A stretch of 44,756 bases of DNA from Deltaproteobacteria bacterium (lineage in GTDB: Bacteria > Desulfobacterota > Desulfobulbia > Desulfobulbales > Desulfurivibrionaceae), in the NCBI GenBank assembly GCA_021811385.1, contig JAJZPC010000015.1:1-44756 (forward strand), written 5' to 3'. The stretch's first letter is position 1. Every line of letters begins with the position of its first letter. A program made the translations under genes and the position numbers. Below the pieces are notes generated by a model. The model saw only the letters and a list, made by a program, of their open reading frames with translations, was not told the origin of the DNA and ran no database searches. Shown here piece after piece: positions 7,431 to 28,360 of the stretch.

Positions 7431-7588
7431 TTTCTTCCTCCATGATTTTTAACTGATCGGGAATCCGTTCCCTTCTTTTCGCCTTACATCACATCCATAA
7501 ATTCTTCGTCGAAGATTATCTCCGTGGGCAGCACCTCCTTCGCCGGTTTCCTGTCGCTTTTATTTATTCGGGTGGGTTTCGTTAAGTC

Positions 7589-7615: not shown

Positions 7616-7711
7616 TTCTTTTTTTTTCACTTTCTCTTTTTTCGTTGAGAGGATTAGCCGTATCGGTTTAGCTCGAAAGTGAACTGAATTGAAAAAAATG
7701 AATGCCTTCCT

Positions 7712-7739
7712 TAAAGATTCCCGGAGACAACACCGATAG
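7712..7739 (+). promoter_or_regulatory. Sigma-28 (FliA)-like promoter of the maf operon
   Basis: On the plus strand TAAAGATT (7712-7719, 7 of 8 to the enteric -35), 12 bases, then ACCGATAG (7732-7739, core CCGATA). The spacing is one base longer than consensus. The start site would lie about 45 bases before the maf GTG. It is divergent from the fliC promoter, so both could be served by the same sigma factor. Confidence 0.65.
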
Positions 7740-7791
7740 AACCAGCGTGCGTTACAACTCTTTTTTTTACCCCTCATGAGAGGAATAAACC

Positions 7792-10659: not shown

Positions 10660-10689
10660 GCCGCAGACAGAAATGGATTGGTGTCTTCC

Positions 10690-11427: not shown

Positions 11428-11431
11428 TACC

Positions 11432-12412: not shown

Positions 12413-12423
12413 GGAGTCCTGCC

Positions 12424-13728
12424 ATGGCACAACTGGCGATATTGGGCGGCAAACCGATCCGGACCAAACTTTTTCCCGCTTACAACACCATTACAAAAAA
12501 GGAGGAAGAGGCTGCGCTGGCGGTCTTGCGCAGCGGCAATCTTTCGCAATTCATCGGTGACTGGTGCGATGATTTCTTTGGCGGCCCCAAGGTCCGGGAG
12601 TTTGAAACTGCCTGGTCGCAAAAATTCCAGGCTCGCCACACCGTCAGTGTCAATTCGGCCACCAGCGGGCTCATTGCCGCCATCGGCGCGGCAGGAATCG
12701 GCCCAGGCGACGAAGTCATCGTCTCCCCTTACACCATGAGCGCCTCCGCTTCCTGCGCCTTCGCCTACGGTGCGGTGCCGGTCTTTGCCGACATTCAGGA
12801 AGACATCTTCACCCTGGACCCGGCCAGCATCGAAGAAAAAATCACCCCCCAAAGCAAGGCCATTGTGGTGGTGCACATCTTCGGCCATCCGGCGGACATG
12901 GACCCCATCCTGGCCCTTGCCCGCCGACATCAGCTGACGGTTATCGAAGATTGCGCGCAGGCGCCGCTGGCCACCTACAAGGGCAGGCCGGTGGGCACAC
13001 TGGGCGACATGGGTATTTTCAGCCTGAATTACCACAAACACATCCACACCGGCGAAGGCGGCATGATCACCACCAACGACGACGCCCTGGCGGAACGCCT
13101 CTGCCTGATCCGCAACCACGGCGAAGTGGCAATCGACTCCCTGCCCCACCTCCACGACCTGACCAATCTGTGGGGGCAAAACTACCGGCTCACCGAACTG
13201 CAATGCGCCATCGGCATCGAACAACTGAAGCGCCTCGACGGCTACCTGGCGCAGCGCATCAATAACTGCGGCTATCTCGCCCAACAACTCGCCAAACTCC
13301 CCGGCATACTCCCGCCGGTTGAATACGCCGACTGCCGTCATGTGTATTATGTGCAGCCGTATAAGTTTCGGCAGGAGCTGGTCGGCGTGCCGCGCAATCT
13401 CTTTGTCCAGGCGGTGGCCGCCGAGCTGCCTTCCGCCTATCTGCGGGAAACCACCGGCAAACTCATCGGGGCCGGTTATGTCAAGCCTCTCTACCTGCAA
13501 CGGATTTATCAAGAAAAAACCGTCAGCCGCTGCTCGTTCAACTGCCCCCGCTACCAAGGCAAGACGTCATACGCCAAGGGCCTCTGTCCCGTGACGGAGC
13601 GCATGCACGAAGAAGAACTCTTTACCCATGAATACATGCGCCCTCCCATGGATAAGACAGATCTTGACGATGTGGTGCGCGCCTTTGAAAAAGTATATGA
13701 ACACCGACATACCCTGCTGGCGCCATGA
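12424..13728 (+). CDS. DegT/DnrJ/EryC1/StrS-family sugar aminotransferase
   Basis: A 434-residue PLP enzyme of the family that transaminates keto-sugars. It has the entry segment TVSVNSATSGLIAAIGA, the PLP aspartate in VIEDCAQA, and the lysine in NYHKHIHTGEGG that should form the Schiff base. The ATG at 12424 follows AAGGAG. It overlaps the next gene by four bases (ATGA). It differs from the PseC homologue at 18966-20192 and therefore probably acts on a different keto-sugar, perhaps the product of the oxidoreductase before it. Confidence 0.88.
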   Translation: MAQLAILGGKPIRTKLFPAYNTITKKEEEAALAVLRSGNLSQFIGDWCDDFFGGPKVREFETAWSQKFQARHTVSVNSATSGLIAAIGAAGIGPGDEVIVSPYTMSASASCAFAYGAVPVFADIQEDIFTLDPASIEEKITPQSKAIVVVHIFGHPADMDPILALARRHQLTVIEDCAQAPLATYKGRPVGTLGDMGIFSLNYHKHIHTGEGGMITTNDDALAERLCLIRNHGEVAIDSLPHLHDLTNLWGQNYRLTELQCAIGIEQLKRLDGYLAQRINNCGYLAQQLAKLPGILPPVEYADCRHVYYVQPYKFRQELVGVPRNLFVQAVAAELPSAYLRETTGKLIGAGYVKPLYLQRIYQEKTVSRCSFNCPRYQGKTSYAKGLCPVTERMHEEELFTHEYMRPPMDKTDLDDVVRAFEKVYEHRHTLLAP

Positions 13729-14807
13729 AAAAAATCCTCTTTGCCGCCCATGATCCGGGAGGAATGAACGTTCTTGCCCCAGTGATCGACTTCTTCGCAA
13801 CGCAGGAAGAATATGAGGTGCTGCTGGTCCTGCTCGGACCGGCCAGGGGCAAGCACCGCATCCCCGCGGGACGCGCCCGGCTTCTCGACATCCCCAGCGC
13901 GCCGCTGCCGGAGTTCCCCAACGAACAGGGGGTGGACCAAAACGACGTTGCCAGGTTGCTGCAAGCCCATGCGCCTGACTGCATCTTCACGGCCACCAGC
14001 TACAACAGCACCCTGGAAAAACACCTGATTGCCCTGGGCAGGCAACTCCGTATCCCCACCGCAGCAATCCTCGATTTCTGGGGCAATTACCGGCTCCGCT
14101 TTACCGCGGGCCATGACACGCATTTTCCTGATATCATTTTTGTCGCCGACCAGAAAATGGCGACCGGCTTGCAGCAGGAAGGGGTTGATGTCGACATTGT
14201 CCTCTGCGGCAATCCCCACCTCAGCCGACTGGCGGCAACCCATGTCCGCCCATCCGCCGCACCGAATCCCACAAAAAAAACATTCCGCTTTTTCTCGGAA
14301 AACATCGCCCATTATTTCCCAGACAAACCGCTGAACGAATTTGTCATCGTCGCGCACATCCTCCGCTTCTTGGAGCAAGCGACAATTGAGGCCACCTTCA
14401 TCATCCGGCCCCACCCCATGGAATCCCCAGCTCCATGGCAGGCTTTTATCAACAAACAGAAACCGGCCAACGCCATTGATCTTTGCCTCGACACCCTGGA
14501 CTTCAACGCCCTTCTCTCCCAACCATTTACCGCCATCGGCCTGACCTCCATGGCCTTGATCGAAACCGCGGTCCGTGGTATCCCGACCTTCAGCTACCAA
14601 ATTGCCGTGCCGGATGACGGATATCTTTTTCTTCCTTACGAAGAGTATGGCATCATCCGGTTGCGAGATGAAAAAGATTTGGAGATGCTTCTCGCAACTG
14701 ATAACATCTTCGCAAGGAAGCTTGCAGACAAAAAACGCGATGAACCTCTGAAGGTAATCCGGCAACATATTACAAATCTATTGGCCGCCCCGAAGCGGAC
14801 ATACTGA
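13725..14807 (+). CDS. Putative GT-B-like sugar-modifying protein, function unknown
   Basis: A 360-residue soluble protein that I do not assign to a named family. It begins with a strand-loop segment (ILFAAHDPGGMNVLAPVI) like the nucleotide-sugar-binding first domain of GT-B glycosyltransferases or UDP-GlcNAc 2-epimerases. It contains TFIIRPHPME near residue 223, a motif common in capsule and glycerophosphate transferases, and ends with a helix-rich domain (LTSMALIETAVRGIPTFSYQ) typical of the GT-B second half. It is translationally coupled to the aminotransferase (ATGA overlap). Context suggests a transferase or epimerase acting on the second sugar of this locus. Confidence 0.7.
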   Translation: MKKILFAAHDPGGMNVLAPVIDFFATQEEYEVLLVLLGPARGKHRIPAGRARLLDIPSAPLPEFPNEQGVDQNDVARLLQAHAPDCIFTATSYNSTLEKHLIALGRQLRIPTAAILDFWGNYRLRFTAGHDTHFPDIIFVADQKMATGLQQEGVDVDIVLCGNPHLSRLAATHVRPSAAPNPTKKTFRFFSENIAHYFPDKPLNEFVIVAHILRFLEQATIEATFIIRPHPMESPAPWQAFINKQKPANAIDLCLDTLDFNALLSQPFTAIGLTSMALIETAVRGIPTFSYQIAVPDDGYLFLPYEEYGIIRLRDEKDLEMLLATDNIFARKLADKKRDEPLKVIRQHITNLLAAPKRTY

Positions 14808-14820
14808 GAGGGGAAAAAAG

Positions 14821-15381
14821 ATGGACTCTCGAGATGTTTTTATCCAGGGAAAAAATGTCGCTCTAAAGGCTTTGTCCGAGGATGACGTGACCAACTCCGG
14901 CTGGTATGGCTGGTTTAACGATGCCGAGACCACCCAGTTCATGCAGCAGCGCTATTTCCCCAACACCTTGCAAAAACAGCGGAAACATTTTCAGGATGCC
15001 ATCCTGGGTGCAGCCAACAAGATACAGCTGGGCATCCTGCCCAAAGGCGAAAAGCAGATTGCTGGCGTGATCAGCCTGGATAATATCGATTTTTTAAACC
15101 GCAAGGCCGACATCTCCATCCTTATCGGTGAAAGGAGATTTCTTGGCAAAGGGTTGGGAACGGAAGCCATCACACTGTTACTCGGCCACGCCTTCGGGAA
15201 ATTAAGTCTCCACAAGGTTGGGCTTGGCGTTCTTTCCGGACATACAGCAGCAATCCGCTCCTATGAAAAAGCAGGATTCGTGATTGAAGGAATATTGAAG
15301 GATGAGATTTTGCTGGATGGCAAATACCACGACGTCACCAGAATGGGAATTCTGGCTGGGGATTTCAAGGCAAGCCTGTAA
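14821..15381 (+). CDS. GNAT-family N-acetyltransferase (RimJ/PseH-like)
   Basis: A 186-residue acetyl-CoA-dependent transferase. The coenzyme-A loop is FLGKGLGTEA (near residue 105), followed by the typical SLHKVGLGVLSGHTAAIRSY and EKAGFVIEG. The ATG at 14821 follows GAGGGGA. It is the last gene of the maf operon and converges on pseI. It would be expected to N-acetylate an amino sugar made by the aminotransferase upstream. A second member of the family sits in the pse operon (18400-18957), so the two probably have different substrates. Confidence 0.85.
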   Translation: MDSRDVFIQGKNVALKALSEDDVTNSGWYGWFNDAETTQFMQQRYFPNTLQKQRKHFQDAILGAANKIQLGILPKGEKQIAGVISLDNIDFLNRKADISILIGERRFLGKGLGTEAITLLLGHAFGKLSLHKVGLGVLSGHTAAIRSYEKAGFVIEGILKDEILLDGKYHDVTRMGILAGDFKASL

Positions 15382-15454: not shown

Positions 15455-16516
15455 CTACGCCAAAAGCCCCCAAGCCAGGGGAGTGCCTCTTTCGATGTCC
15501 CGAGTAGCCCGGCGACCGAGCACCGTGTCGAAATAACGGGGCGCCAAGCCGTAGCCGGGCCGAATGGAACGGACATTGTCGCGGGTAAACAGTTCCCCGG
15601 CCCGGACATCCCGAACCACGAAGAGCGACCGCCGAAAAACGCGGCTGGCCTGCTCCTCTTCCGTGAGGGTGTAGCGTACCTCACCCAGGGCTTGTTCCGC
15701 CTCGCGCACTGCGCTCACCATCGCCTTAAACTCCGCCGGCTCCAGGGAAAATCCGCTGTCCGGCCCACCGGTGGCACGGGAGAGGGTAAGATGCTTCTCG
15801 ATGACGCAGGCCCCTAATGCCACGGCAGCCACCGGCACAGCAAACCCCAAGGTATGATCGGAAAGGCCTGCAACCACGCCGAAAGCTTCCGCCAGATGCT
15901 GAATGGTGCGGAGATTCATGGCCGCTGCCGAAGCGGGGTAGGCGCTGGTGCACTTAAGCAGGGCAACTTCCCGGCTTCCGGCTTGGCGCAAGGTGGCCAC
16001 CGCTTCATCGATCTCGGCGAGGGTAGCCATGCCTGTGGACATGATCACCGGTTTGCCGGTGGTCCCGATTTTTTTGAGCAACGGCAGGTCAACCAGCTCA
16101 AACGAGGCGACCTTGTGGGCCGCCACCCCGATTCCTTCGAGAAAATCCACCGCCGTGGCATCAAAGGGGGTGGAGAAACAGGCAAGCCCCATGCCAGTCG
16201 CCGCTTCCAGCAGACGCGGCTGCCATTCCCAGGGAGTGGCGGCCTCTCGGTACAGATCGTAAAGATTCCTGCCCTGCCAGGCAGTACCCTTGATCCGAAA
16301 CCATTCCTTGTCGCTGTTGATGGTCAAAGTGTCGGCGGTATAGGTCTGGAGCTTGACTGCATCCACGCCCGCCTCTTTCGCCGCCTCGATGATCCGCAGA
16401 GCCTGGTCGAAGTCCTGCCCGTGGTTGGCCGACATTTCGGCAATGATGTAGGTCGGATATCCCGCGCCAATTTCACGGCCCTTGATCCTTATTTCCGGCG
16501 ATTGCATAGTGCTCAT
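15455..16516 (-). CDS. pseI: Pseudaminic acid synthase
   Basis: Condenses phosphoenolpyruvate with 2,4-diacetamido-2,4,6-trideoxy-L-altrose to give pseudaminic acid. It has 353 residues: an NeuB-type TIM barrel (YIIAEMSANHGQ, AVKLQTYTADTLTI, STGMATLAEID, KCTSAYPA, IEKHLTLSR) and a C-terminal antifreeze-like SAF domain (SLFVVRDVRAGELFT). AEMSANH, KLQTYTADT and the TPWEWQP segment fit PseI better than NeuB or LegI. The start is ATG at 16516; an ATG three codons later is equally possible. It is the last gene of the 11-gene operon. Confidence 0.93.
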   Translation of the reverse strand: MSTMQSPEIRIKGREIGAGYPTYIIAEMSANHGQDFDQALRIIEAAKEAGVDAVKLQTYTADTLTINSDKEWFRIKGTAWQGRNLYDLYREAATPWEWQPRLLEAATGMGLACFSTPFDATAVDFLEGIGVAAHKVASFELVDLPLLKKIGTTGKPVIMSTGMATLAEIDEAVATLRQAGSREVALLKCTSAYPASAAAMNLRTIQHLAEAFGVVAGLSDHTLGFAVPVAAVALGACVIEKHLTLSRATGGPDSGFSLEPAEFKAMVSAVREAEQALGEVRYTLTEEEQASRVFRRSLFVVRDVRAGELFTRDNVRSIRPGYGLAPRYFDTVLGRRATRDIERGTPLAWGLLA

Positions 16517-16534: not shown

Positions 16535-17329
16535 TCAATTATCACTCTGCTGTTTTCGCCACAGCCAGATCCGTCCCTGCGCCGTATCCCCGAGCGCCGG
16601 CAACTTGAGCGCCAACCTGTTTACCGCAGCATCGTAGGACGGCTCCTGCCCCTCTTCCTGTGCCAGCCAAGCGTTCACCACGCGACTCAAAAAATAATAT
16701 GTAGCACTGTAGCAATCGACTTTTTCCAGCTGTATCCCTGGAATCTTGAGTTCCCGCAGATCATCGTCCCGAAAATAGATATTGTGCCACGGCGGCGTGA
16801 TAGCCGGAAGCCCTACCAACTCGCGCAACTCATTGATTTTACCCAACCCGTCCACACTGTTTTCACACATCGCATACACGCCACCCGGCCGCAACAGGCC
16901 GGTGATGTCAGCGATGGCTTTCTTCTGAGCCTCCCAGCTCTCGAGGTTAATCAATACTCTTTCCGTATAAATCAGATCATAGCGGGTTTCCAATTCGGGA
17001 AGCATGCCAACATCCCCAACCATGAAATCGATCTTGCCCAAAAGCGTTTCTTTGGCGACCAGCGATCTTGCCGCCTGCACCATTTTTTGGGCATAATCAA
17101 GTCCGAGAATATCTACCTGAAAACGTTTGGCCAACTCAATCGCCGTAATACCGTTACCGCAGCCAATCTCCAGAATACGCATGCCCTCTTTGACATACTT
17201 GGCAATCGCCTCAATTTCGATCACCTTGGCGATCACATCCCTGGAGCCAGACTCTTGACCAAGAACCGCGCGTTCTTCCCAATATTGCTGTATCTCGGCG
17301 ATGGAACGTTCCTGTTTCTCTTGCATCAT
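16535..17329 (-). CDS. SAM-dependent class I methyltransferase
   Basis: A 264-residue methyltransferase with the SAM-binding motif ILEIGCGNGITAIELA (near residue 52), an acidic residue after the next strand (DILGLDYA), and post-motif DLIYTERVLINLESW. Its position between pseG and pseI, with 14- and 18-base gaps, points to O- or N-methylation of the pseudaminic acid or its precursor; methylated nonulosonates are known in other bacteria. The substrate cannot be read from the sequence. The ATG at 17329 follows AAGGGGA. Confidence 0.85.
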   Translation of the reverse strand: MMQEKQERSIAEIQQYWEERAVLGQESGSRDVIAKVIEIEAIAKYVKEGMRILEIGCGNGITAIELAKRFQVDILGLDYAQKMVQAARSLVAKETLLGKIDFMVGDVGMLPELETRYDLIYTERVLINLESWEAQKKAIADITGLLRPGGVYAMCENSVDGLGKINELRELVGLPAITPPWHNIYFRDDDLRELKIPGIQLEKVDCYSATYYFLSRVVNAWLAQEEGQEPSYDAAVNRLALKLPALGDTAQGRIWLWRKQQSDN

Positions 17330-17342: not shown

Positions 17343-18383
17343 CTAGCTGGAGAGCATCATCTCAACGACCCGGCCACACCCCATGCCATCCACCACACCT
17401 TGACCGTTTCCCGCCATCCGCCCACGTTGTCCCTGATCCACCAGAAGGACTTCGAGCACATCCGCCACCTGTTTCGTCTGCCATCCATCAAACCAGCCAA
17501 GATTGATCGCTGCACCATGCGCTTCCAAATACGCCGCCACTCGTTCCTGGTTATCGGCTAGTACGGTCACCAGCATGGGAACCCCCATAGCTGCCAATTC
17601 CCAACAGGTGGATCCGGCCGCGCTGATGGCAAGATCGGCCCATTGCATGAGCGGAGCCATCTCCGTCACCGTCACCATCAACTCTGCGTCAAATGGCGCC
17701 TTTTCCAGACGCTTGACCAAATCCTGATGATGAGGATTGAGAGAGCCGCTCACAATCTTCACTTCAAGGTCACTTCTGTCCATGGCCAAAAGCGCATCCA
17801 CCACCCGGCCACAGACGTTATTCTGATCAGCCCCTCCCATGGTGACGAGAATACGACGGCCTCGTGGGGCTGCAATCCGCTTCTCTTCACGGGCCACGCG
17901 AAATTCCCGTCGCAACAGAGCATAACGTGCTCCCAAAAGACGAAGCGTCTCAACACCGGTGTTGTATGTCAACTCCCCCGCATAGGCATTGGGGTTAAGC
18001 AGAATATCGGCCTGATACTCCGGCAGATGTCCATAATCATCAATAACCAGCAACGGCCAGCCGCTAGCTCGGAGAGCATCATGGTAATCGGCGGTAAAAT
18101 GATACCCGTCCAACACCACCCAACCTGATTGTTCCTGCGCTTCTCGCAGCCAGACAAGAACGGCGGCACAATCTGCTGGGTCGGGATGTGAGGCCGACAA
18201 AAGATGCAATTGGCAGCCTTCGGCCACAATACGCGCACGCAGCGGTCCGGCGCTGATCCTCCCCCAAAAAACCGCTTTCCCTCCACGCTCTTGCCATTCC
18301 CGGGCCAATGCCAGACAACGCATCACATGGCCGGAGCCGATTGCAACATCGGCATCCGCACGAATCACAAGCAGAGGCGCCAT
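17343..18383 (-). CDS. pseG: UDP-2,4-diacetamido-2,4,6-trideoxy-beta-L-altropyranose hydrolase
   Basis: Removes UDP from the sugar nucleotide in the step before PseI. It has 346 residues with a GT-B-like fold. The signature IGSGHVMRCLALA near the N-terminus carries the catalytic histidine; VVLDGYHF, LVIDDYGH, LVTMGGADQNN and ISAAGSTCWELAAMGVP follow. The ATG at 18383 is used because the family begins with the strand LLVIRADA; an upstream in-frame start at 18440 would add 19 unrelated residues. It lies 16 bases after the pseH-like gene. Confidence 0.92.
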   Translation of the reverse strand: MAPLLVIRADADVAIGSGHVMRCLALAREWQERGGKAVFWGRISAGPLRARIVAEGCQLHLLSASHPDPADCAAVLVWLREAQEQSGWVVLDGYHFTADYHDALRASGWPLLVIDDYGHLPEYQADILLNPNAYAGELTYNTGVETLRLLGARYALLRREFRVAREEKRIAAPRGRRILVTMGGADQNNVCGRVVDALLAMDRSDLEVKIVSGSLNPHHQDLVKRLEKAPFDAELMVTVTEMAPLMQWADLAISAAGSTCWELAAMGVPMLVTVLADNQERVAAYLEAHGAAINLGWFDGWQTKQVADVLEVLLVDQGQRGRMAGNGQGVVDGMGCGRVVEMMLSS

Positions 18384-18399
18384 TAGGGCAGATCCTTGG

Positions 18400-18957
18400 T
18401 CATTTGCAAGCAATGGGCAAGGACTCGGAAAATTTCGCATAGGAATAGCTGTTCACCCAGGCATCTTCCGAAAAATATTGTTTCTTGAAAACAGCCTCCC
18501 GTTCATAGCCTAGCTTTTCAAATACCCGCTTCGAGCCAAGATTGGTGCTGTAGCATCCGGCCGTCACCTTGACCAGGGATAACTGACCGAGGGCATACTC
18601 CGTCAACAATCCCACCGCTTCCGTGGCATATCCCTTACCCCAGCAACTTTTTTCTCCTATAAAGAACGAGATCTCCCCGCGTTGGTGATGTTGCAATATT
18701 GGCCCCAGCTTGATATTGCCGATATGGAGATCCGTGTTTTTCTCGATGATCGCCAAAAAAATGTTGTCCGGAGCTGCGGTTACGGTTGCGACATAACTCC
18801 GCACCGAGGCCAAGGTCTGCACAACAAAACGTGTTTCGAGATAACGGTTGACCTCCGGATCATTCAGCCAATGGCAATATGTGTCTGTGACATCTGCCTG
18901 GGTTACAGGGCGCAGAGAAATCTTTTCTCCGAGCAGATGTATTTCCTTCTCCAGCAT
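18400..18957 (-). CDS. pseH: GNAT N-acetyltransferase, likely PseH
   Basis: A 185-residue RimJ/RimL-type acetyltransferase, with SLRPVTQADVTDTYCHWLND at the start and the acetyl-CoA loop CWGKGYATEA (near residue 115), then NLGSKRVFEKLGYE. In the pathway PseH N-acetylates the C4 amino group made by PseC, and the gene sits between pseC and pseG, as that step requires. The ATG at 18957 has GAGG six bases upstream; the ATG at 18963 directly abuts that site. The gene follows the pseC stop almost without a gap. Assignment as PseH is by context plus family. Confidence 0.82.
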   Translation of the reverse strand: MLEKEIHLLGEKISLRPVTQADVTDTYCHWLNDPEVNRYLETRFVVQTLASVRSYVATVTAAPDNIFLAIIEKNTDLHIGNIKLGPILQHHQRGEISFFIGEKSCWGKGYATEAVGLLTEYALGQLSLVKVTAGCYSTNLGSKRVFEKLGYEREAVFKKQYFSEDAWVNSYSYAKFSESLPIACK

Positions 18958-18965: not shown

Positions 18966-20192
18966 TCAGTCCAAGGATTCTTGCAAAGCAGCAACAACCC
19001 TGTCCACATCTCTCTTGGTCATGGACGGGAAAAGCGGCAGGGACAGGCACCTTTCATAATACGCCTCTGCCACTGGGAGATCACCGCGTTTCAACCCAGC
19101 ATGTTGCCGGTAATAGGGTTGAAGATGCACGGGGATATAGTGGACCTGGGTTCCGACACCTTTGGCATGCAAACGCCGCACCAGTTCAGGCCGGGAAACA
19201 CCTGCCCCGTCAAAATCCACCTGCACCACAAAAAGATGCCAGGCGTGCCGGACAGAATCAGCCACCTCCAAGGGTTTCACCAGCGCAGACAAGCGGGGGG
19301 ATTCGGCCAGGCCCGCCCTGTAGCACTCGGCCAGGCGTGCTTTTGCTGCAAGGAAATGATCAACCTTTGCAAGTTGACTTCGCCCCAAAGCGCATTGAAA
19401 ATCCGTGATCCGATAATTATAGCCCAAGGCCTGCATTTCATAATACCAGGGGACAACGTTGCCGGAATCATCGTGCGCCATCTCAGTGTTTTTGAAAGAA
19501 AAACCCGAGGCCTCGTTGCGAACCATCCCGTGACCGCGAAAGAGTACCATCCGCTCATACAGAGCACGATCATTGGTCGTTACCGCCCCGCCTTCCCCGG
19601 TTGTGATGCCCTTTACGGGATGAAAGGAGAAAACGGTCATCGCGGAATGGCGGCAGCTACCAATCCTGACCATTTCCCCGGAATTGTCCAGATATTCGGC
19701 GCCAAGGGCGTGACACGCATCTTCGACTATGCTGACTCCATGTTTGGCAGTCAAAGCAAAGAACTCCTCCATCCTGGCCGGATGCCCACCAAAATGAACC
19801 GGCAGTACAACCTTTATGCGGCCATCACTTTGCGCAAGCATCCGCTCGACTTGGTGAGGATCAAGATTGACCGTAAGGGGATCGATATCGGCAAAGTGAA
19901 CATCCGCCCCGACAAAACGGGCGGCATTTGCGGTGGCCAGAAAGGTGATGGGGCTGGTGACGACACCATCCCCCGGCTGCACATCAAGCGCCATCATGGC
20001 CAGATGCAGAGCTGCGGTACCATTGGCGCAGACCACTGCATATCGCGCCCCGCAGTAAGAGGCCAACGCCTCCTCAAAACGTCCGACTTCCGGACCGGTG
20101 GTCAGCCAGTCGCCGCGCAGGACACGAGCCACTTCGGCAATGTCCTCTTCGGTAATTTCCTGTCTGCTGTAAGGCAAGAATCTTTCATTCAT
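18966..20192 (-). CDS. pseC: UDP-4-amino-4,6-dideoxy-N-acetyl-beta-L-altrosamine transaminase
   Basis: A PLP-dependent aminotransferase of 408 residues that acts on the keto-sugar made by PseB. Characteristic segments are FLPYSRQEITEEDI, VLRGDWLTTGPEV, CANGTAALHLAMMAL, SIVEDACHALGAEY and the Schiff-base lysine in HPVKGITTGEGG. The C-terminal QVHYIPVHLQPYY is typical of PseC. The ATG at 20192 lies three bases after the hisF-like stop codon, indicating coupling. Confidence 0.93.
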   Translation of the reverse strand: MNERFLPYSRQEITEEDIAEVARVLRGDWLTTGPEVGRFEEALASYCGARYAVVCANGTAALHLAMMALDVQPGDGVVTSPITFLATANAARFVGADVHFADIDPLTVNLDPHQVERMLAQSDGRIKVVLPVHFGGHPARMEEFFALTAKHGVSIVEDACHALGAEYLDNSGEMVRIGSCRHSAMTVFSFHPVKGITTGEGGAVTTNDRALYERMVLFRGHGMVRNEASGFSFKNTEMAHDDSGNVVPWYYEMQALGYNYRITDFQCALGRSQLAKVDHFLAAKARLAECYRAGLAESPRLSALVKPLEVADSVRHAWHLFVVQVDFDGAGVSRPELVRRLHAKGVGTQVHYIPVHLQPYYRQHAGLKRGDLPVAEAYYERCLSLPLFPSMTKRDVDRVVAALQESLD

Positions 20193-20195
20193 AGG

Positions 20196-20960
20196 TTATT
20201 GACCGACACGGACATCGACCCCCTCACCCTTCAGGTAAAACTGACACTTGATGGGACTCTGATCGGTAAAATGAAACAGGCTGCCCACGGCCAGGGCGGA
20301 AGCATGCCCGTCCTTGAAGCCCTCCGCCAGATGCGCCAAAGAGCCCACCCCGCCGGAGGCGATTACCGGAACATCAACGGCATCCGCCACGTTGCGGGTG
20401 AGATCAAGATCAAGACCCGTGTTGGTTCCGTCCCGGTCAATGGAGGTGAGCAGAATCTCCCCCACCCCAAGCTCCTGCAACTCATGGCACCAGGCCAGGG
20501 GATCTTTTTCAACCTGCACGGTGCCGCCGTGGGTGTAAATCCGATATTCGCCGTTACTTTCTTTTTTAAAATCAACAGCCCCAACCATGCATTGCCGTCC
20601 AAACCGTTGCGCAGCCTCGCGCATGAACTCGGGATGCTCCACCGCCGCCGTATTGACCGAGACCTTATCCGCCCCGGCGAGGAGCAGTTGCCGGACATCT
20701 TCCAGCGACCGCACTCCACCGCCCGCGGTAAAAGGCATGAAACACTCTTCCGCTGTCCGGGCGATAATATCGTACAAGATGTTTCGCTTCTCCTGGCTTG
20801 CGGTAATATCCAGAAAAATCAGCTCATCCGCCCCCTGAGCGTTATAAATGCGTGCGTTGGTAACGGGATTTCCCACGTCACGCAAATCCTGGAAGGCAAC
20901 GCCCTTGACCGTGCGTCCTTCCTTTAACAGCAGCTTGGGGATCAATCTTTTTTTCAGCAT
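20196..20960 (-). CDS. HisF-like synthase subunit of the sugar amidotransferase system
   Basis: A 254-residue (beta/alpha)8 barrel close to HisF, the cyclase subunit of imidazole glycerol phosphate synthase. Two things argue against histidine synthesis: it is next to a HisH-like and a WbpG/PseA-like gene, and the first catalytic aspartate of HisF (in CLDV of true HisF) is replaced in PKLLLKEG. The second aspartate is kept (VGAVDFKKE), as are the phosphate loops GGGVRS and GGVGS. This matches the HisF2 type that passes ammonia to an N-acetyl sugar amidotransferase. The ATG at 20960 follows GGGGAAAG. It lies 14 bases after the hisH-like gene. Confidence 0.88.
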   Translation of the reverse strand: MLKKRLIPKLLLKEGRTVKGVAFQDLRDVGNPVTNARIYNAQGADELIFLDITASQEKRNILYDIIARTAEECFMPFTAGGGVRSLEDVRQLLLAGADKVSVNTAAVEHPEFMREAAQRFGRQCMVGAVDFKKESNGEYRIYTHGGTVQVEKDPLAWCHELQELGVGEILLTSIDRDGTNTGLDLDLTRNVADAVDVPVIASGGVGSLAHLAEGFKDGHASALAVGSLFHFTDQSPIKCQFYLKGEGVDVRVGQ

Positions 20961-20974
20961 TCTTTCCCCTGCGG

Positions 20975-21595
20975 TCATGCCCCTCGGTAGGCAAGAAAAT
21001 TTTCCAATACCTTGAGGCCGTTGTCCTGACTTTTTTCCGGATGAAACTGGGTGGCAAATATATTGCCCCTCCTGATCGCCGCAGGAAAAGGATAGCCATA
21101 ATCGCAATACGCCGCGATGTCTGCCGTGTCCTCGCAAATCATGTGGTAGCTGTGGACAAAATAAAAGGTCGCCCCTGGCCCCAGGCCTCGAAACAATAAC
21201 GAGTCATCCACCGGGGTAATTTCGTTCCAGCCGACATGTGGAACCTTATACTGCTTCGGGTTCAGCACAAAACGCTTCACCCCTCCCCGAATCCAGGCAA
21301 GCCCTGGACAATGAACATTCTCCTCTCCGAACTCAGCCAACAGCTGCATGCCAAGGCAGACTCCCAAAAATGGCTTCCCGCCCTCGACAACCTCCCGCTG
21401 CATGGCATCAACCCAGCCATTTTTGTTAAGGGCAGCCATGGCGTCAGGAAAAGCGCCAACACCGGGCAAAACGACATGAGTCGCCTCTGCAAGCCCCGCA
21501 GGAGTTGCGATCACCCTGGCTTCTTCGCCAAGATGCTCAAAGGCCTTAAGCACGGACAGCAGATTGCCCATGCCATAGTCGATTATGGCAATCAT
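20975..21595 (-). CDS. HisH-like glutamine amidotransferase of the sugar amidotransferase system
   Basis: A class I glutamine amidotransferase of 206 residues that releases ammonia from glutamine. The start IAIIDYGMGNLLSVLKAF, the nucleophile in FLGVCLGMQLL, and the His/Glu pair in ATQFHPEKSQDNG give a complete catalytic triad. The ATG at 21595 is used because the family strand starts there; an upstream ATG at 21637 lies within the preceding gene. It sits between the PseA-like and HisF-like genes, the same order as the trio that makes amidino sugars in Pseudomonas O-antigens. Confidence 0.9.
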   Translation of the reverse strand: MIAIIDYGMGNLLSVLKAFEHLGEEARVIATPAGLAEATHVVLPGVGAFPDAMAALNKNGWVDAMQREVVEGGKPFLGVCLGMQLLAEFGEENVHCPGLAWIRGGVKRFVLNPKQYKVPHVGWNEITPVDDSLLFRGLGPGATFYFVHSYHMICEDTADIAAYCDYGYPFPAAIRRGNIFATQFHPEKSQDNGLKVLENFLAYRGA

Positions 21596-21608
21596 CCAGA
21601 GAACCTTT

Positions 21609-22742
21609 TCATGGCTTGGGCCAGAGATCCTGATCATGCAATTTCTCGCCCCGGGGAAGGGATGAGGGCTCGGGCCATTGGTGCGGGCTTACCACATGCT
21701 TCCGCAGTATCCCGTTAAATTCTTCTTCAGTTATGTCCAGAAGATTGAGAAAATAATCAAGGCTTGCCGGCCTGTTGCCTTCATACCTTTTGACCGCCGC
21801 AACCGCCGCCTCCCTGGAAAGCCTGCCGTTGCGGATATCAATACTCATCAAGTGGGACACCCTGGCGTATCCGCGTTTCAAATACTTGCAATAGTCGCGG
21901 ACCCCCTGCAGCATGCACTCCACTTTTTCATAACGGTAGTCCGGAGGCACGCCTTCCACATCATCCTCCTGCCAGCCCAACTCTCTCTTGATGATTGCAA
22001 CATTCTGCTTCACATCCCAGGGGATATAGCTGCCCAAACAAACGGAACGGTAGCCGATGCCGCGCAACTCCTTCAGCTTCGGATACTTGAAAGGCTCAAG
22101 GTCACGCATGGCAATAGACCCATCCAGCATGCCCAGCATGTCCTCCGCGGCAATGCCGAGATTGACGAACCGGTTGAATCGTTTCTCATCCACCTCTTCC
22201 GGATTATCATACGAATAATATGAAGTATATTCGGCGCTTGGCTCCCCCCAGAAAATAAGAGGGATATTGTGCTTCACGGCAATCTGCATGGGATAGGCAA
22301 ATATCCCCGTATGGCAATGCCAACAAAAATCCCCTTTGCGCCTGAGGCTTTCCAGCATTATTTTTCTTACCACCTGCCAGTTGGGGGTAAATTTGAGGAA
22401 ATCAACACCCAACTTTCTCATGGTTCTGACATTATTCTCGATTATTCGAGGGCGCAAAAAACCATGATCAAAGGAAACAACCAGCGGCTTCACTTTATAC
22501 TCAGTGACCAGCTTATACACCGTATAGGTTGAATCCTTGCCGCCGCTGAAAGGAATCAGGCAGTCATACTCGTTCTTGCCTCGGTACTGCTCGATGAGTT
22601 CAACAAGATCCCTGCCACGCGTGGCCCAATCTATCTTCTCCTGCTTTACCTCCTGCTGACGGCAAACATTACAAACCCCCTCTCCATCAAACATGATGGT
22701 TTCATGGGTTTCCGGAATCATACAGCGCGAGCATATTCTCAT
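21609..22742 (-). CDS. pseA: N-acetyl sugar amidotransferase (PseA/WbpG-like)
   Basis: An ATP-pyrophosphatase-fold enzyme of 377 residues that turns an N-acetyl group into an acetamidino group using ammonia from HisH/HisF partners. An N-terminal zinc-ribbon-like cluster (RICSRCMIPET, CNVCRQQ) precedes the PP-loop CLIPFSGGKDSTYTVYKL (near residue 62). CWHCHTGI and the IPWDVKQNVAIIKRELGW segment follow. The C-terminal 50 residues contain helices like those of the family. The neighbours pseC, pseG and pseI make amidinated pseudaminic acid the likeliest product; a legionaminic derivative is not excluded. Confidence 0.9.
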   Translation of the reverse strand: MRICSRCMIPETHETIMFDGEGVCNVCRQQEVKQEKIDWATRGRDLVELIEQYRGKNEYDCLIPFSGGKDSTYTVYKLVTEYKVKPLVVSFDHGFLRPRIIENNVRTMRKLGVDFLKFTPNWQVVRKIMLESLRRKGDFCWHCHTGIFAYPMQIAVKHNIPLIFWGEPSAEYTSYYSYDNPEEVDEKRFNRFVNLGIAAEDMLGMLDGSIAMRDLEPFKYPKLKELRGIGYRSVCLGSYIPWDVKQNVAIIKRELGWQEDDVEGVPPDYRYEKVECMLQGVRDYCKYLKRGYARVSHLMSIDIRNGRLSREAAVAAVKRYEGNRPASLDYFLNLLDITEEEFNGILRKHVVSPHQWPEPSSLPRGEKLHDQDLWPKP

Positions 22743-22783: not shown

Positions 22784-24853
22784 TCATATCTTACGGAAAA
22801 CAGGCTGCAAACCTTTTCCCTCAAGAAATTTCTCTGGAGCTCCACTTTCCAAGGCAGCCGCAACCACGGGCAAGGTCGCCCGATACGCCCGGAGAACATG
22901 CATGACATCAGCCTCGGTCATGCTAAAACAGACATTATGGTATCCTGCCCAAAGGACCCCTCTGCGAACCATTTCCTGCTGCAAAATCCCTTTGATGAGC
23001 AGAGGGTCGATCCCGTCCGGGACGTTAATGTCTATGATGGTTCGGGGGGATAAGCCCTTGCAGGTAAAATACTGTGACAACCCAAGGCCGGCCGCCAGGA
23101 CATTAAAACCCTCCTGAAGCCGCTCCCCCTGTTCCCACAAAACCCCAATGACATCCTTATCCATTAAAGTCTGCATGGTTGCACTTGCCGCAGCCAAAGA
23201 AATCGTTTCTCCGCCGAAGGTGAACGAATAGAATATTTCATCAAACACCTTCATCAGATCCCTCTGCCCTGCAATGGCAGCCAGCGGAAACCCATTCGCC
23301 ATGGCCTTGCCAAAACAAGCCATATCCGGAGTGACACCAAAATACTCCTGCGCTCCCCCCTTGGTCAGACGAAAGCCGGTGATCATTTCATCAAAAATCA
23401 GCACCGCGCCATTGGCATGGGCAAGATCCCGCACCTTTTCCAGGAAATTATCGCGGGGAAGATCGACAGAGATCGGCTCCATGATAACAGCGGCAATCTG
23501 CCCAGAATACCGGGAAAAAATATCCTCCAATGAGGAGATCGCATTATAGGAAAACGTTTTAGTCAGTTCGCAGGTACCCTTTGGCACTCCACCGTTACGG
23601 GTTGTTGTGCCGATATACCAATCCTGCCAGCCGTGGTAGCCACAGCAAGCAACCATTTCCCTGCCGGTAAAAGCCCGCGCCGCGCGTATGGCCCCGGAGG
23701 TCGCATCAGAACCATTCTTCCCAAACCGGACCATCTCCGCACAGGGGATCATCGCAACCAGTTTTTCGGCAACCTCGATCTCCAGACGGTGCGGCAACGA
23801 GAAACTAATCCCTTTTTTCAATTGTTCCTGTACCGCTCCATCAACACAAGGATCACAATAGCCCAATATTATTGGCGCCAGAGCCAAAACAGTATCGACA
23901 TATTCGTTCCCGTCAACATCCCAGACATGGGCCTTTTCTCCCCGTTCCAGGTAAACAGGGGCAACCCCTTGAACAAACTGACTCGGACCTTTACTGAATG
24001 TTTGGCTACATGACGGGATGAGCTTTTCCGCCTTCGCTTTTAATGCCAGCGAATTATGCAGTGACAGTTTTCTGGCCTCGATAGGTTTTTCAGCCAGGAG
24101 GCTCTTGTATAACCCTTCGTTTTTCATGATATTCTGATTAACCTCCATCAGATCAGGCTCCTGTTGCAGTAAATGCAGTACTTCCCGCAAACCAAAGAAA
24201 GGATGTTGCTTCCCCAATCGTGCGTAAATAAGCCTGGCAAAATCGAGATCTACCTGCTCATCAACAGTCAAACGCAATCGTGCCGGAACGGCCTCTTTTT
24301 TATTCTCGACATTGATGATGGAAAAAATTGGCCTTCCCGCTTTTATTGCTGTTCTGATGTACGGGGTGACATGCTCTCTCTCCAAAGGACTTTTCGCCTG
24401 TTCTCTGGCCAGAGTTAGGGCTGCAGCGGAAAACACTTCCACATCAAGCCCATCAGGATACGTATAGTGCAAGGTGTTTGAGGCATAATCACATCCGGGC
24501 GTTGCGACAAACGCCTCAACAACCCTGTCAACAACCTCCGGATCAATAAACGGACAATCAGAAGTTATTCGCACAACAACATCGGCCTGCGCAATCGCCG
24601 CTGCCTGGAAATATCTTTCCAGCACATCATGTTCCGGACCACGCACACAGAGAATCCCTTCTGCTTTGCAAAACGAGTCTATCGGATCATCCTGTCTGTT
24701 TGTTGTTGTGGCGACCATCACCTGATCAATATTCCGGCAACGGCGCGCCCTGTGGACAACATGCCACAACATGGGATGGCCACCGATATCCGCCAGTACC
24801 TTCCCAGGCAAACGGCTGGATCCCATCCGAGCCTGAATGATTGCCGCAATCAC
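22784..24853 (-). CDS. Fused cytidylyltransferase and class III aminotransferase
   Basis: A 689-residue protein with two enzymes in one chain. Residues 1-240 are an SpsF/PseF-like cytidylyltransferase (AAIIQARMGSSRLPGKVL; RITSDCPFIDP near 95-105; RLTVDEQVDLDFARL). Residues about 265-689 are a class III PLP aminotransferase of the glutamate-1-semialdehyde aminomutase type (WDVDGNEYVD; RFGKNGSDATSGAIRAAR; IFDEMITGFR; Schiff-base lysine 516 in CFGKAMANGFPLAA). The start is GTG at 24853, overlapping the stop of the preceding gene (GTGA); a longer frame upstream lies inside that gene. As the only cytidylyltransferase in the pse operon, the N-terminal half may act as PseF. The role of the aminotransferase half is unknown. 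Confidence 0.9.
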   Translation of the reverse strand: MIAAIIQARMGSSRLPGKVLADIGGHPMLWHVVHRARRCRNIDQVMVATTTNRQDDPIDSFCKAEGILCVRGPEHDVLERYFQAAAIAQADVVVRITSDCPFIDPEVVDRVVEAFVATPGCDYASNTLHYTYPDGLDVEVFSAAALTLAREQAKSPLEREHVTPYIRTAIKAGRPIFSIINVENKKEAVPARLRLTVDEQVDLDFARLIYARLGKQHPFFGLREVLHLLQQEPDLMEVNQNIMKNEGLYKSLLAEKPIEARKLSLHNSLALKAKAEKLIPSCSQTFSKGPSQFVQGVAPVYLERGEKAHVWDVDGNEYVDTVLALAPIILGYCDPCVDGAVQEQLKKGISFSLPHRLEIEVAEKLVAMIPCAEMVRFGKNGSDATSGAIRAARAFTGREMVACCGYHGWQDWYIGTTTRNGGVPKGTCELTKTFSYNAISSLEDIFSRYSGQIAAVIMEPISVDLPRDNFLEKVRDLAHANGAVLIFDEMITGFRLTKGGAQEYFGVTPDMACFGKAMANGFPLAAIAGQRDLMKVFDEIFYSFTFGGETISLAAASATMQTLMDKDVIGVLWEQGERLQEGFNVLAAGLGLSQYFTCKGLSPRTIIDINVPDGIDPLLIKGILQQEMVRRGVLWAGYHNVCFSMTEADVMHVLRAYRATLPVVAAALESGAPEKFLEGKGLQPVFRKI

Positions 24854-25785
24854 TGTTGTGGCCCCCAAAGAGAGGGATTGACAATGGACTTGTCCTGGAC
24901 CCATAAAACATTGTCGACCTGGCGGGCAAGTTGCTCCAGATCTTCCTCGCTGAATGCCAATACCGACTTCATGTCCCTGCAATTTTCCTGGATCTGCTCT
25001 GGAGTCTCGGCCCCAACCACCAACGGAAAAGGTTTGGCACGCCAATACGCATAGGCCAGAGCCACCTCTCTTTTGGACAGACCAACCTTGTGGCACAAAG
25101 CAGCAAACTGTGTTGCCCAAGGCACAGCATTCTTTAAAAAAGAAGGAAATTCCTCCGGCTCCATCAGCAATAACCCCTGCAAAAAGACGCTCCGAACATG
25201 AAGAAGACACTCACCTTTTTGGGCCGCACAAAAAAAACCTTTCTGATAAGCGTCTTGATCAAATACGTTGAATGGCAGCTGCAATAGGGAAATCCCCGAC
25301 ATGGCCAGGCATTGCATCCCCTCCTCCACGGAATACACCGAAGCCCCGACCCGCGTCGTCAAGCCGACGCGTTGAATTTCCGCCAAACTGGCACCCAACC
25401 CACCATGCCACGCTCCAGCTCCTGCCGGATTATGCACCAACAACCCCTCAAATCTTGGCACACCCAAGTTTTCCAGGGAAGACCGCACTGACTCCAAAAT
25501 TATTTCATTTTTTTGGCCGTGGAGGCCAGGGGAAAGCTTTGATACCACCTTGGCAGCCCTATCAATCTTCAACTCCTTAAAAGCTCTGCCAAGAATCTTC
25601 TCACTTTCGCCATAGGCCTGTGCAGTATCAAAATACCGGACACCTTCTGCCCACGCAGCCGCGACAATGGCGATGGCTTGCGAAGTTGCAGGCCTCCCTG
25701 TCTTGTTAGCCACGCCGTACTCTAGACCCAGCTGCACCGTCCCCAAAACCAGCGGGAGAGTCGAATCTGTCTGCTCAATGCTCAT
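24850..25785 (-). CDS. Aldo/keto reductase family protein
   Basis: A 311-residue (beta/alpha)8 NADPH-dependent reductase. The start LPLVLGTVQLGLEYGVAN, the catalytic aspartate and tyrosine in RYFDTAQAYGESEKIL, the lysine in VVSKLSPG, and the histidine in LLVHNPAG make a complete active site. The C-terminal segment PLVVGAETPEQIQEN is the cofactor-binding loop. It lies 16 bases after pseB and overlaps the fused cytidylyltransferase by four bases. AKR genes occur in other nonulosonate clusters, and reduction of a sugar or linked three-carbon compound is plausible, but the substrate is unknown. Confidence 0.88.
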   Translation of the reverse strand: MSIEQTDSTLPLVLGTVQLGLEYGVANKTGRPATSQAIAIVAAAWAEGVRYFDTAQAYGESEKILGRAFKELKIDRAAKVVSKLSPGLHGQKNEIILESVRSSLENLGVPRFEGLLVHNPAGAGAWHGGLGASLAEIQRVGLTTRVGASVYSVEEGMQCLAMSGISLLQLPFNVFDQDAYQKGFFCAAQKGECLLHVRSVFLQGLLLMEPEEFPSFLKNAVPWATQFAALCHKVGLSKREVALAYAYWRAKPFPLVVGAETPEQIQENCRDMKSVLAFSEEDLEQLARQVDNVLWVQDKSIVNPSLWGPQQ

Positions 25786-25801: not shown

Positions 25802-27064
25802 TCAACCTGCCGCAGAGACCAAACAAAGGCCAGCGACCTCTTTTTCCTGCCGATCGCACCCGAAAATGATCTCTTGCAACTCTGCCACAGACATCAATTC
25901 CTCATTGTTGTCGCTTGTATACATAAAATTTTCGGGCAATTTGACCCCGTCGACATAATTTTCCCGTTTCCACCAAGTGTGATTCGGCAATACGACATAC
26001 ATCCCCTTATACGATATGGTATTTCGCGCTTCATCCTCTCCGGTCAGGGCCTCGTGGAGTTTTTCTCCGGGCCGGATGCCAAGGATTTCTATCTCGCACT
26101 CAGGTCCAATGGCTTTCGCCAGATCCATAATCCGCATACTGGGAATTTTAGGGATAAAAATCTCCCCCCCCTGCATGTGTTTGAATCCAGTGACAACAAG
26201 ATCAACCGCCTGATCCAGAGTGATCCAAAAACGGGTCATGCGATCATCGGTCACTGTCAATTTTCCGCTTTTTCTTTGCTCCAGAAAAAGCGGGATGACA
26301 CTCCCTCGGCTGCCAATCACGTTGCCATAGCGAACACAGGCAAATTTTGTCCCACGCCCGCCAGCATAGGCATTCCCTTGGGTAAAAAGTTTATCGGAGC
26401 ACAATTTGGTCGCACCGTACAGATTCACCGGATTCACGGCCTTGTCGGTGCTCAGGGCAATAACCTTTTTAACGCCGGTATCGATTGCGGCATCAATCAC
26501 ATTCTGTGCGCCATGGACATTGGTCTTCACCGCCTCAAAGGGGTTGTATTCACAGGCTGGCACCTGCTTGAGCGCCGCAGCGTGCACAACCATATCCACC
26601 CCCTCCATGGCGCGCCGTAATCTATCAGCATCCCGGACATCACCAATAAGGTAGGTTATTCTTTCCTCACCAAAACTTTGCCGCATTTCATGTTGCTTGA
26701 GCTCGTCACGGCTATACACCCGAATTCCTTTAACTTTATATTTATCAAGCATCATCCGGCAAAAATGCTTGCCAAATGAGCCGGTTCCACCGGTCACGAG
26801 AATAGTCTGCTGTGTCCAATCAATGCCTGGACGGCCAGAGGCTTTCCCTTTCAACATCTCCCGGACAGAGTCAATGCTTCGCTTCTGCCGGTAAACATAT
26901 TCCTTGATCTGCAAGAACTTCTCAACATCCTGCTTTGAGTAGCGACGTTGGCCGCCATTTGTTCTTTCCGGATTCACAAAATCCGCAAATTCCTTTTGCC
27001 AATATCTAATAGTGGAAACGGGAACCCCTAACTCCAAACCAATCTCTTTAATTCGATATTTCAT
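25802..27064 (-). CDS. pseB: PseB (UDP-GlcNAc 4,6-dehydratase/5-epimerase) fused to an N-terminal MerR-type HTH domain
   Basis: First enzyme of the pseudaminic acid pathway. It has 420 residues where PseB normally has about 330. Residues 1-70 are a winged HTH of the MerR type (YRIKEIGLELGVPVSTIRYW, then NGGQRRYSKQDVEKFLQIKE). Residues 85-420 are PseB: the Rossmann motif TGGTGSFGK (91-99), HAAALKQVPACEYNP, and the catalytic STDKAVNPVNLYGATK (Asp207, Lys208, Tyr216). The fusion is continuous: no stop codon or good internal ribosome binding site separates the parts. The ATG at 27064 follows GAGGTG, and an ATG at 27103 is out of context. It heads the 11-gene operon behind a possible sigma-28 promoter. 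The DNA target of the HTH is unknown. Confidence 0.92.
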   Translation of the reverse strand: MKYRIKEIGLELGVPVSTIRYWQKEFADFVNPERTNGGQRRYSKQDVEKFLQIKEYVYRQKRSIDSVREMLKGKASGRPGIDWTQQTILVTGGTGSFGKHFCRMMLDKYKVKGIRVYSRDELKQHEMRQSFGEERITYLIGDVRDADRLRRAMEGVDMVVHAAALKQVPACEYNPFEAVKTNVHGAQNVIDAAIDTGVKKVIALSTDKAVNPVNLYGATKLCSDKLFTQGNAYAGGRGTKFACVRYGNVIGSRGSVIPLFLEQRKSGKLTVTDDRMTRFWITLDQAVDLVVTGFKHMQGGEIFIPKIPSMRIMDLAKAIGPECEIEILGIRPGEKLHEALTGEDEARNTISYKGMYVVLPNHTWWKRENYVDGVKLPENFMYTSDNNEELMSVAELQEIIFGCDRQEKEVAGLCLVSAAG

Positions 27065-27135
27065 ATCGCACCTCATCTGTTTTCCGGGAAACGCCTTCAT
27101 CATGCAACTGGCGATTATTTTTCCCTTTGCATAGT

Positions 27136-27162
27136 ATATCGGCCTGCTGGCAAAAAAGCTGA
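27136..27162 (-). promoter_or_regulatory. Possible sigma-28 (FliA)-like promoter of the pseB operon
   Basis: On the minus strand TCAGCTTT (27155-27162, 5 of 8), exactly 11 bases, then GCCGATAT (27136-27143, 7 of 8 to GCCGATAA). The start would be about 65 bases before the pseB ATG. The -10 is as good as at fliD but the -35 is weaker. The rest of the gap 27065-27487 is AT-rich and holds a 14-base inverted repeat at 27321-27334. No clear terminator of tatC is seen there. Confidence 0.6.
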
Positions 27163-27487
27163 ACTAAAAATTTCAGCGAACTTCACGTTTAACCTAAAGC
27201 AAAAACCATGCCGACGCAAAAGAAGAAAATATTTCCCACATACGGAGACAGGCAGCCCGCACTATTCTTCACAAGTTGCAGGCCCGCCCACAAAGCAGAT
27301 TTTTCACAAAAAGAATAATCGTCAAGATTTTGACAAGACGCGAAGAGAACAAGAAAATACTCGGCAAATCATCGAGAATTCTCCTGTCATGAACGGGAAG
27401 GCCACCGGCGGCGCCAGTGATTAATCTCTTTCCTGTTATCTAACAAGCTACACAAGATGCACAACGGAACATGTTATTGCACACCCC

Positions 27488-28239
27488 TTACTTTTCCTTA
27501 GCCCCAAACCCGGCCAACCGCTTTCTCCCCAGCAACCAGACCGCGACGATACTCACCTCATAGAGCACGATCAAGGGCAGGGCCATGAGGCACTGGTTGA
27601 TCACATCCGGGGTGGGGGTAAGGATGGCGGCGATGACAAAGGAAAGCAGGATGGCATACTTGCGGTGCCGGTTCAGGAACGCGGCGTTCACCACGCCCAT
27701 TTTTGCCAGCAGCACCATGAAGATGGGAAGCTCGAAGATAACGCCGAAGGCAATGAGCAAACGCAGGCAGAGGGAAAAATATTCCTTTACCGTGGGCATG
27801 GGGCTTAAAAAATCGTTGGAATAGCCAAGCAGGAACTTGAAGGCCGGAGGGAAAACAACGAAATAGCCAAAGGCCGCCCCGCCGAAAAAGAAGAGCGAGG
27901 AAAGCAGAGTGAAGGGCAGGATCACCCGTTTTTCATGCTGATACAGTCCGGGGGCGACAAACCGCCAGAGCTGGTAAAAAATCACCGGGCTGGCCAAAAA
28001 AAGCCCTGCAACCAGGGAAAGCTTCAGATAAAAAAAAACCCTTCCTGATACGAGGTGAAGATCAGGCTGGAGTTTTCCGGCATTGCCGCATACAGGGGCT
28101 TGAACAGCAGCTGCCCAAGCTCTTTACTGTAGGAATAGGCCACACCGAATCCCGCCACCGTGGCAAGCACCGAATAGATCAGGCATTTGCGCAACTCAGT
28201 GAGATGTTCCGTAAGAGCCTGTTTTTGAAAATCATCCAT
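27488..28239 (-). CDS. tatC: Twin-arginine translocase subunit TatC, disrupted by a one-base frameshift
   Basis: TatC is the membrane receptor of the Tat system for folded proteins. The N-terminal part (28024-28239) reads LTEHLTELRKCLIYSVLA...SYQEGFFF and then hits a stop. The rest (27488-28023, other frame) continues with LKLSLVAGLFLASPVIFYQLW and five more membrane segments to the end. The break falls in a run of nine T on the minus strand (28030-28038); ten T would restore the family sequence EGFFFYLKLS. Everything else looks intact, so a sequencing error, a recent mutation or polymerase slippage are all possible. The ATG at 28239 has only a weak GGGT upstream. Confidence 0.88.
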
Positions 28240-28360
28240 ACCCGACACCCAAAACGTTTCGTTTCCAAAGATACAAACCACGCCACAATACCCCTTCCCC
28301 CCAACCCGGTCAAGAAAGAGCATCGGTAACATACGGCCTGAGCGAAAGACACCCCTCCCG

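Follow-up and report, generated by a model that had tools for sequence, protein, structure and literature searches.

A MerR-type helix-turn-helix domain joined to the dehydratase PseB: a candidate enzyme and regulator of a glycan operon

Whether an enzyme of nucleotide-sugar biosynthesis also controls transcription of the operon that encodes it is the question raised by one gene of the window, the whole 44,756-nucleotide stretch of DNA analysed here. To our knowledge, little is understood of the way in which bacteria adjust nonulosonic-acid supply to flagellin production, and at this locus the committed enzyme of the sugar pathway seems to carry the sensor itself. An initial annotation had described an intact PseB, with its DK...Y active site, in one frame with a MerR-type helix-turn-helix (HTH) domain, and had suggested that the enzyme might control its own operon.

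Architecture of the fused protein

The coding sequence of HTH-PseB was located on the minus strand at 25802 to 27064 (420 amino acids plus stop) using the ORF list, profile matches and conservation of the start. A single open frame runs from the ATG at 27064 to the stop at 25802, and no stop codon interrupts the HTH and PseB parts. The ORF list placed the start at 27103 (433-amino-acid form), but protein conservation begins only at the ATG at 27064, which makes this position, also chosen in the initial annotation, the likelier start; in that comparison some starts of other loci were assigned by a fixed rule to non-start codons. The MerR-type winged HTH, comprising residues 1-72 (26849 to 27064, minus strand) with a PVSTIRYWQ helix and a GGQRRY wing, was recognised by profile, AlphaFold2 model, fold match and alignment, and MerR_1 (PF13411) matched residues 16-86 of the 433-amino-acid form with an E value of 3.9e-16 and 59.4 bits (cut-off 21.6). 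A short, flexible linker (residues 73-84; 26813 to 26848, minus strand) leads to the PseB part, an inverting UDP-GlcNAc 4,6-dehydratase at about residues 85-404 (25853 to 26812, minus strand), which matched TIGR03589 with an E value of 4.2e-150 and 499 bits (curated cut-off 408). The best PDB match of this part was FlaA1 (2gn4; profile E value 4.1e-108, superposition TMt 0.90), which resembles HTH-PseB over the whole enzyme domain, whereas its solved chain of 344 residues has no HTH. Within the catalytic segment DK-x7-Y-x3-K (D207 to K220; 26405 to 26446, minus strand), D207, K208, Y216 and K220 were invariant in the 22 aligned fusions of the 27 copies known, and the first three match D132, K133 and Y141, given as the catalytic residues of FlaA1 in the available portion of PMC5774825.

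The methionine closest to the HTH/PseB junction, residue 70, is not conserved, being methionine in 3 of the 22 aligned fusions. The AlphaFold2 model, built from the alignment of 22 fused sequences, had a mean pLDDT of 82.9, with blocks of 74-92 over residues 1-70, values below 50 at residues 73-79 and, past residue 80, values above 85 in 21 of 34 ten-residue blocks, the C-terminal tail being lowest. Judged from its sequence, HTH-PseB contains a complete PseB, for which inverting dehydratase activity on UDP-GlcNAc is predicted.

The HTH positions P15, S17, T18, R20, W22 and G37-Y42 (GGQRRY) were invariant among the 22 aligned fusions. A lack of basic residues had been named beforehand as a reason to abandon DNA binding; residues 1-72 were found to contain 16 K+R and 10 D+E. 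The HTH dN/dS was 0.02-0.12 in the six of 10 pairs for which it was computable (PseB, 0.03-0.11 in eight of 10 pairs), which indicates that the HTH has been retained. Since HTH dN exceeded PseB dN in six of 10 pairs, the whole HTH is more variable than the enzyme, although none of the helix and wing positions listed above differs among the 22 aligned fusions.

Foldseek with the HTH alone returned HiNmlR, RacA, GlnR, TnrA, CarH and MtaN. GlnR was the best solved relative in a profile search (7tea, E value 2.8e-8), with CarH also near the top, and was near the top by fold (4r4e, TMq 0.80). Proteins of the classical MerR superfamily have a long, dimer-forming coiled-coil helix behind the HTH. This helix is absent from HTH-PseB, in which only a short helix was modelled at residues 64-71 (64-75 in the HTH-only model), followed by the low-confidence linker. 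HTH-PseB is not a classical MerR regulator, although its reading of DNA may be MerR-like.

Gene neighbourhood and distribution of the fusion

The cluster that follows HTH-pseB in the window lies on the minus strand. An aldo/keto-reductase-like gene (24850 to 25785; ORF list and profile) is next in the cluster, followed by a single ORF (22784 to 25210) in which a sugar cytidylyltransferase part, identified by eye, is joined to an aminotransferase part that resembles GSA aminomutase and scored below the model cut-off; a joined cytidylyltransferase-aminotransferase match of the same extent was also seen in L160 to L163. Genes for WbuX, HisH-like and WbuZ/HisF-like sugar amidation proteins (20196 to 22742; profile), PseC aminotransferase (18966 to 20192; 489 bits, cut-off 424), PseG hydrolase (17343 to 18440; 224 bits, cut-off 154), a methyltransferase-like protein (16535 to 17329; profile) and PseI pseudaminic acid synthase (15455 to 16516; 496 bits, cut-off 340) complete the series. 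PseC, PseG and PseI thus accompany HTH-pseB here and likewise in relatives, as expected of a PseB. In each of the 23 fused loci examined besides the window, HTH-pseB is followed at +1223 to +2055 by a PseC homologue, and genes for PseG, PseI and amidation proteins often lie further downstream where the contig extends (the survey of relatives was run without HisF); the gene order of the window, as listed above, differs from that of the relatives.

Flagellar genes were found in the same window, with FliS, FliD, flagellin and a PseD-like gene (the last below the model cut-off) at 2420 to 10659, and three other fused loci (L152, L154 and L164) adjoin flagellar genes. All 21 fused genomes that were tested contained RpoN, and all 21 contained FliA, which scored above the cut-off in 20. 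The flagellin ORF (5004 to 7430, minus strand) encodes 808 amino acids, the middle of which appears by eye to be a long run of degenerate repeats. Beside the PseD-like gene, a second sugar set (10678 to 15381, plus strand) comprises KdsB-like, oxidoreductase and PseC-like genes and a PseH-matching acetyltransferase, all below cut-offs.

The fusion was detected in 16 of 97 genomes in a search for relatives (window counted), in 19 of the order's 257 genomes (20 copies, with two in G079), in five genomes outside the order within a 395-genome phylum sample (G112, G149, G131, G470 and G160), and in at least two named records, a Desulfosudis oleivorans MAG (L064) and a Myxococcales MAG (L065). The last two are absent from sets A4 and A5, and A5 is also without the near copies L161 and L163. 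The contig scan for relatives covered the best 80 of 130 matches and does not amount to a census, most of the 80 extending no further than the beginning of the Rossmann part. Full-length recurrence at 54-77% identity in other genomes places the fusion beyond chance or error, and an origin in a sequencing error or chance frame in this one assembly, raised earlier as a possible objection, was excluded on this ground. The initial annotation knew of no described PseB with such a domain, and no published description of a MerR-PseB fusion was found in a literature search limited to open-licence papers. The plasmid collection gave 95 records, all below 60% identity, with 19 of the 20 matches listed annotated as MerR regulators; the phage collection gave one record, also below 60% identity and without annotation.

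PseB was matched at E values of 1e-100 or less in 56 of the 257 genomes of the order, 37 of these having HTH-less matches only. In a tree of 63 PseBs, which does not contain L217, 23 of 24 fused rows fell in a single supported clade of 25 that also includes the HTH-less L165 and L166, and the fused L164 fell in the sister group among three HTH-less rows. At least two changes of HTH state are forced on this tree; two gains, or one gain plus losses, both fit it as read from the sequences. Three PseBs of the fused type lack the HTH: L165/L040 (77%), L166 (74%, truncated where its contig ends) and L217 (71%).

An HTH profile detected no HTH in the non-fused PseBs of 37 loci. When it was run (E value of 0.001 or less) over 54 loci, consisting of these 37, seven longer stretches partly repeating them and 10 named records, a separate HTH gene near pseB was found only in L066; the only other matches were the fusions L064 and L065. 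In L066, a Pseudobdellovibrio MAG, an ihfA-like gene, a separate merR and pseB are consecutive (2558 to 4116; one genome only), a layout that is a possible picture of the state before fusion. It would also be a possible source if the HTH were a passive relic of joining to an adjacent merR gene, retained solely because PseB needs it to fold or to stay stable. Such an origin without function is very improbable given the low HTH dN/dS where computable, the existence of fused-type PseBs that do without the HTH, and the conserved upstream element described below.

A conserved element upstream of HTH-pseB

In relatives, HTH-pseB is preceded by a GG-N10-GC sequence, the element GAAGTT-N6-AAAGTTTANTTAAACTTT and a -10-like box; the flanking sequences are predicted promoters, which we take by resemblance to consensus sequences to be of sigma54 and sigma28 type. 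The element was first spotted by eye upstream of 24 fused loci. A subsequent EM search gave a motif score of 209 versus 72-81 in eight order-1 Markov controls run with fewer starts, a score raised by the close kin among the 24 loci. In leave-group-out scoring, for which the matrix excluded close kin, the 24 fused loci had a median of 17.8 bits. By this measure 22 of 24 exceeded 7.0 bits, the best value among 37 non-fused pseB upstream regions, which form a loose control because their PseBs are more distant and some lie directly behind another gene. The 99th percentile of shuffles (9.7) was exceeded by 19 of 24 and the highest shuffle (15.7) by 13, with 11 below it. L152 (7.8), L163 (6.4) and L162 (-3.2) were weak, the latter two failing.

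The core, AAAGTTTA(N)TTAAACTTT, is near-palindromic, with at least seven of nine pairs in 10 of 24 sites versus 3.6% of shuffles, and an AAG[TCG] word stands 10-12 bases ahead of it in 17 of 24 sites (counted with no control). In 17 of 24 fused loci the GG-N10-GC sequence ahead of the element scored 14 or more of 16 points, versus 0.25% of shuffles, and in 18 of 24 a CCGATA-like box after it scored five or more of six, versus 16.7% of shuffles, both by scoring patterns chosen after the sequences had been seen. No element above 5.9 bits was found at the HTH-less fused-type loci L165/L040, L166 and L217; L166 nonetheless has a GGCAC...TTGCT stretch and a weak match of 10.8 bits to the R2 model described below.

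The window carries a diverged form of the element at 27151 to 27185 (minus strand; motif model), within the region 27065-27487 that the initial annotation had picked out as a candidate site. This copy lies below the median, with 10.6 bits leave-group-out and four of nine palindrome pairs. Ahead of it is the sigma54-type -24/-12 sequence CGGCATGGTTTTTGCT (GG-N10-GC; 27198 to 27213, minus strand; pattern score), and a predicted sigma28-like promoter occupies 27136 to 27162 (minus strand), its -35-like box (27155-27162) overlapping the element and its -10, GCCGATAT, lying at 27136-27143. The second region proposed earlier, 7431-7791, fared otherwise: the operator model, with filters off, found nothing there at E values up to 10.

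Model R2, comprising 72 positions and derived from 14 loci, was used to scan the order's 257 genomes, and scoring was confined to the top 19 candidates in each. At an E value below 1e-7 it matched 15 of 19 fused genomes and none of the 238 others; 12 of the 15 contributed sequences to R2, which makes this result partly circular. Of the seven held-out fused genomes, three matched upstream of the fusion gene (G632, 2.9e-8; G634, 1.8e-8; G635, 2.3e-12), at positions consistent with those from the order-wide search for the fusion, all of family f3 and kin of R2 model members, and four missed (G043, G067, G073 and G079), all of family f5, the loci of which scored 7.8 to 19.7 with the leave-group-out matrix. 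Among 45 genomes (21 fused), 14 fused genomes and none of the 24 others matched below 1e-7. Outside the order, G149, a near copy of a model member, matched R2, while G131, G160 and G470 did not reach an E value of 0.1.

Three weak matches (1e-4 to 1e-3) lay in genomes without the fusion (G550, G562 and G088). They were rejected as glycan operators, no glycan operon being recognised by eye; near the match in G088 a flagellin ORF starts on the opposite strand. G271, which has a fused-type PseB without HTH, gave a match of 1.1e-4 on C165, set aside since the downstream gene is not recognisable as a glycan gene, and a second weak match (10.8 bits, E value 0.96) near pseB.

A second strong site was found in four of the six fused f3 genomes (G041, G081, G635 and G632), at loci L202 (3286-9315), L203, L227 and L232, none of them used in R2. 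All precede the same GT9-type gene (58.6-100% identity), behind which G081 has methyltransferase, Ldh_2, sugar cytidylyltransferase and GFO/IDH enzyme genes, with like ORFs in G041. That one site stands before two first genes which are unrelated to each other points to a protein that acts in trans, on evidence from four genomes of one family.

Proposed regulation and comparison with known systems

Together with the conserved helix and wing, the conserved element at the protein's own promoter region makes it probable, as first suggested, that the enzyme controls its own operon. The reading we favour, and hold to be somewhat better than an even prospect, is that HTH-PseB is both enzyme and transcription factor, a CarH- or PutA-like autoregulator and probably a repressor of its glycan operon. 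The PseB part would make the first pseudaminic-acid intermediate, and its oligomer would join several MerR-type HTHs. Their targets would be the repeated AAGTT/TAAACTT half-sites, which have the expected sigma54 start on one side and the sigma28-type -35 box on the other, and bound HTH-PseB would most likely block both promoters, giving negative feedback on the operon; in some relatives a second glycan operon would be repressed as well. UDP-GlcNAc, NADP(H) or product in the PseB part would probably alter the oligomer state or HTH spacing and so set the degree of repression.

Many MerR-type regulators are activators, and the operators of the superfamily lie inside an overlong -35/-10 spacer. 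The HTH might likewise bind the element but activate, remodelling a sigma28-type promoter whenever substrate occupies PseB, and the operon would then be turned on by UDP-GlcNAc supply. The -10-like box abutting the element would suit such a role, which is nevertheless unlikely: relative to the predicted promoters, the element spans the -35-like box as well as the expected sigma54 start and does not sit between -35 and -10, and this placement argues for repression, as in the CarH operators including the -35 that are described in the available portion of PMC9304148.

A role apart from transcription was also weighed. In it the HTH would tether the enzyme to a DNA locus or to a protein partner (a glycosyltransferase or flagellar component), and the element would belong to another regulator travelling with the operon. 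RacA, a Foldseek match, is a MerR-fold protein with a DNA-tethering role, some fused loci stand beside flagellar genes (L152, L154 and L164, as above), and the element is weak at some of them. Such tethering is distinctly improbable given that the element was not found without the HTH, the three HTH-less fused-type PseBs included, and that all 22 aligned fusions share the same helix and wing residues.

The ligand-set change envisaged for the repressor would be reasonable by analogy with relatives. PseB hexamers in other bacteria had been invoked in the initial annotation, and the available text of PMC5774825 reports hexamers for the solved relatives FlaA1, CapE and WbjB and records that coenzyme contacts of WbjB were postulated by its authors as an oligomer-state switch. 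A wider version of the model, which we regard as tentative and doubtful, makes HTH-PseB a metabolite-gated master regulator of flagellar glycosylation, with a ligand-loaded oligomer reading the operator between the sigma54 and sigma28 promoters and co-ordinating several glycan operons; if so, the first enzyme of the pathway would match flagellin sugar supply to the flagellar assembly programme.

CarH and CarA are similar in having an N-terminal MerR-type HTH, a ligand-binding, oligomerising C-terminal domain and a repeat operator that includes the -35 (available portion of PMC9304148), features of which oligomer, ligand and binding are predicted for HTH-PseB. Their C-terminal domain is a B12 photoreceptor, whereas that of HTH-PseB is a nucleotide-sugar dehydratase, and no B12-binding domain was among the 19 families matched. 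The CarH operator consists of tandem 11-bp repeats, whereas the present element has two repeats at a distance of about 12 bp and, in addition, a half-site in inverted orientation. PutA and BirA have folds and pathways other than those of HTH-PseB. They resemble it in joining a pathway enzyme and a repressor in one polypeptide, regulation by HTH-PseB being predicted; enzymes that repress their own operon are already known (PutA and BirA, in the available portion of PMC6978683). The same portion of that source describes TnrA as governed by a metabolic enzyme; in the GlnR/TnrA systems with glutamine synthetase, HTH and enzyme are separate proteins, whereas in HTH-PseB they are fused. If the favoured reading is true, a nucleotide-sugar dehydratase joins the enzymes that regulate their own genes. 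With a concrete protein, a site of 35 bp and, for controls, relatives that naturally lack the HTH, feedback control of the sugar pathway is directly testable.

A minor observation concerns the tatC gene of the window (27488 to 28245, minus strand), in which the reading frame shifts at a run of exactly nine T, with ATCTGA or ATCTAA next, so that the gene is split. No paper on this frame change was found by title in the literature search. Among 24 fused loci tried, tatC was present in 11, and all 11 showed the same T run and frame offset, which suggests conserved recoding or polymerase slippage instead of an error.
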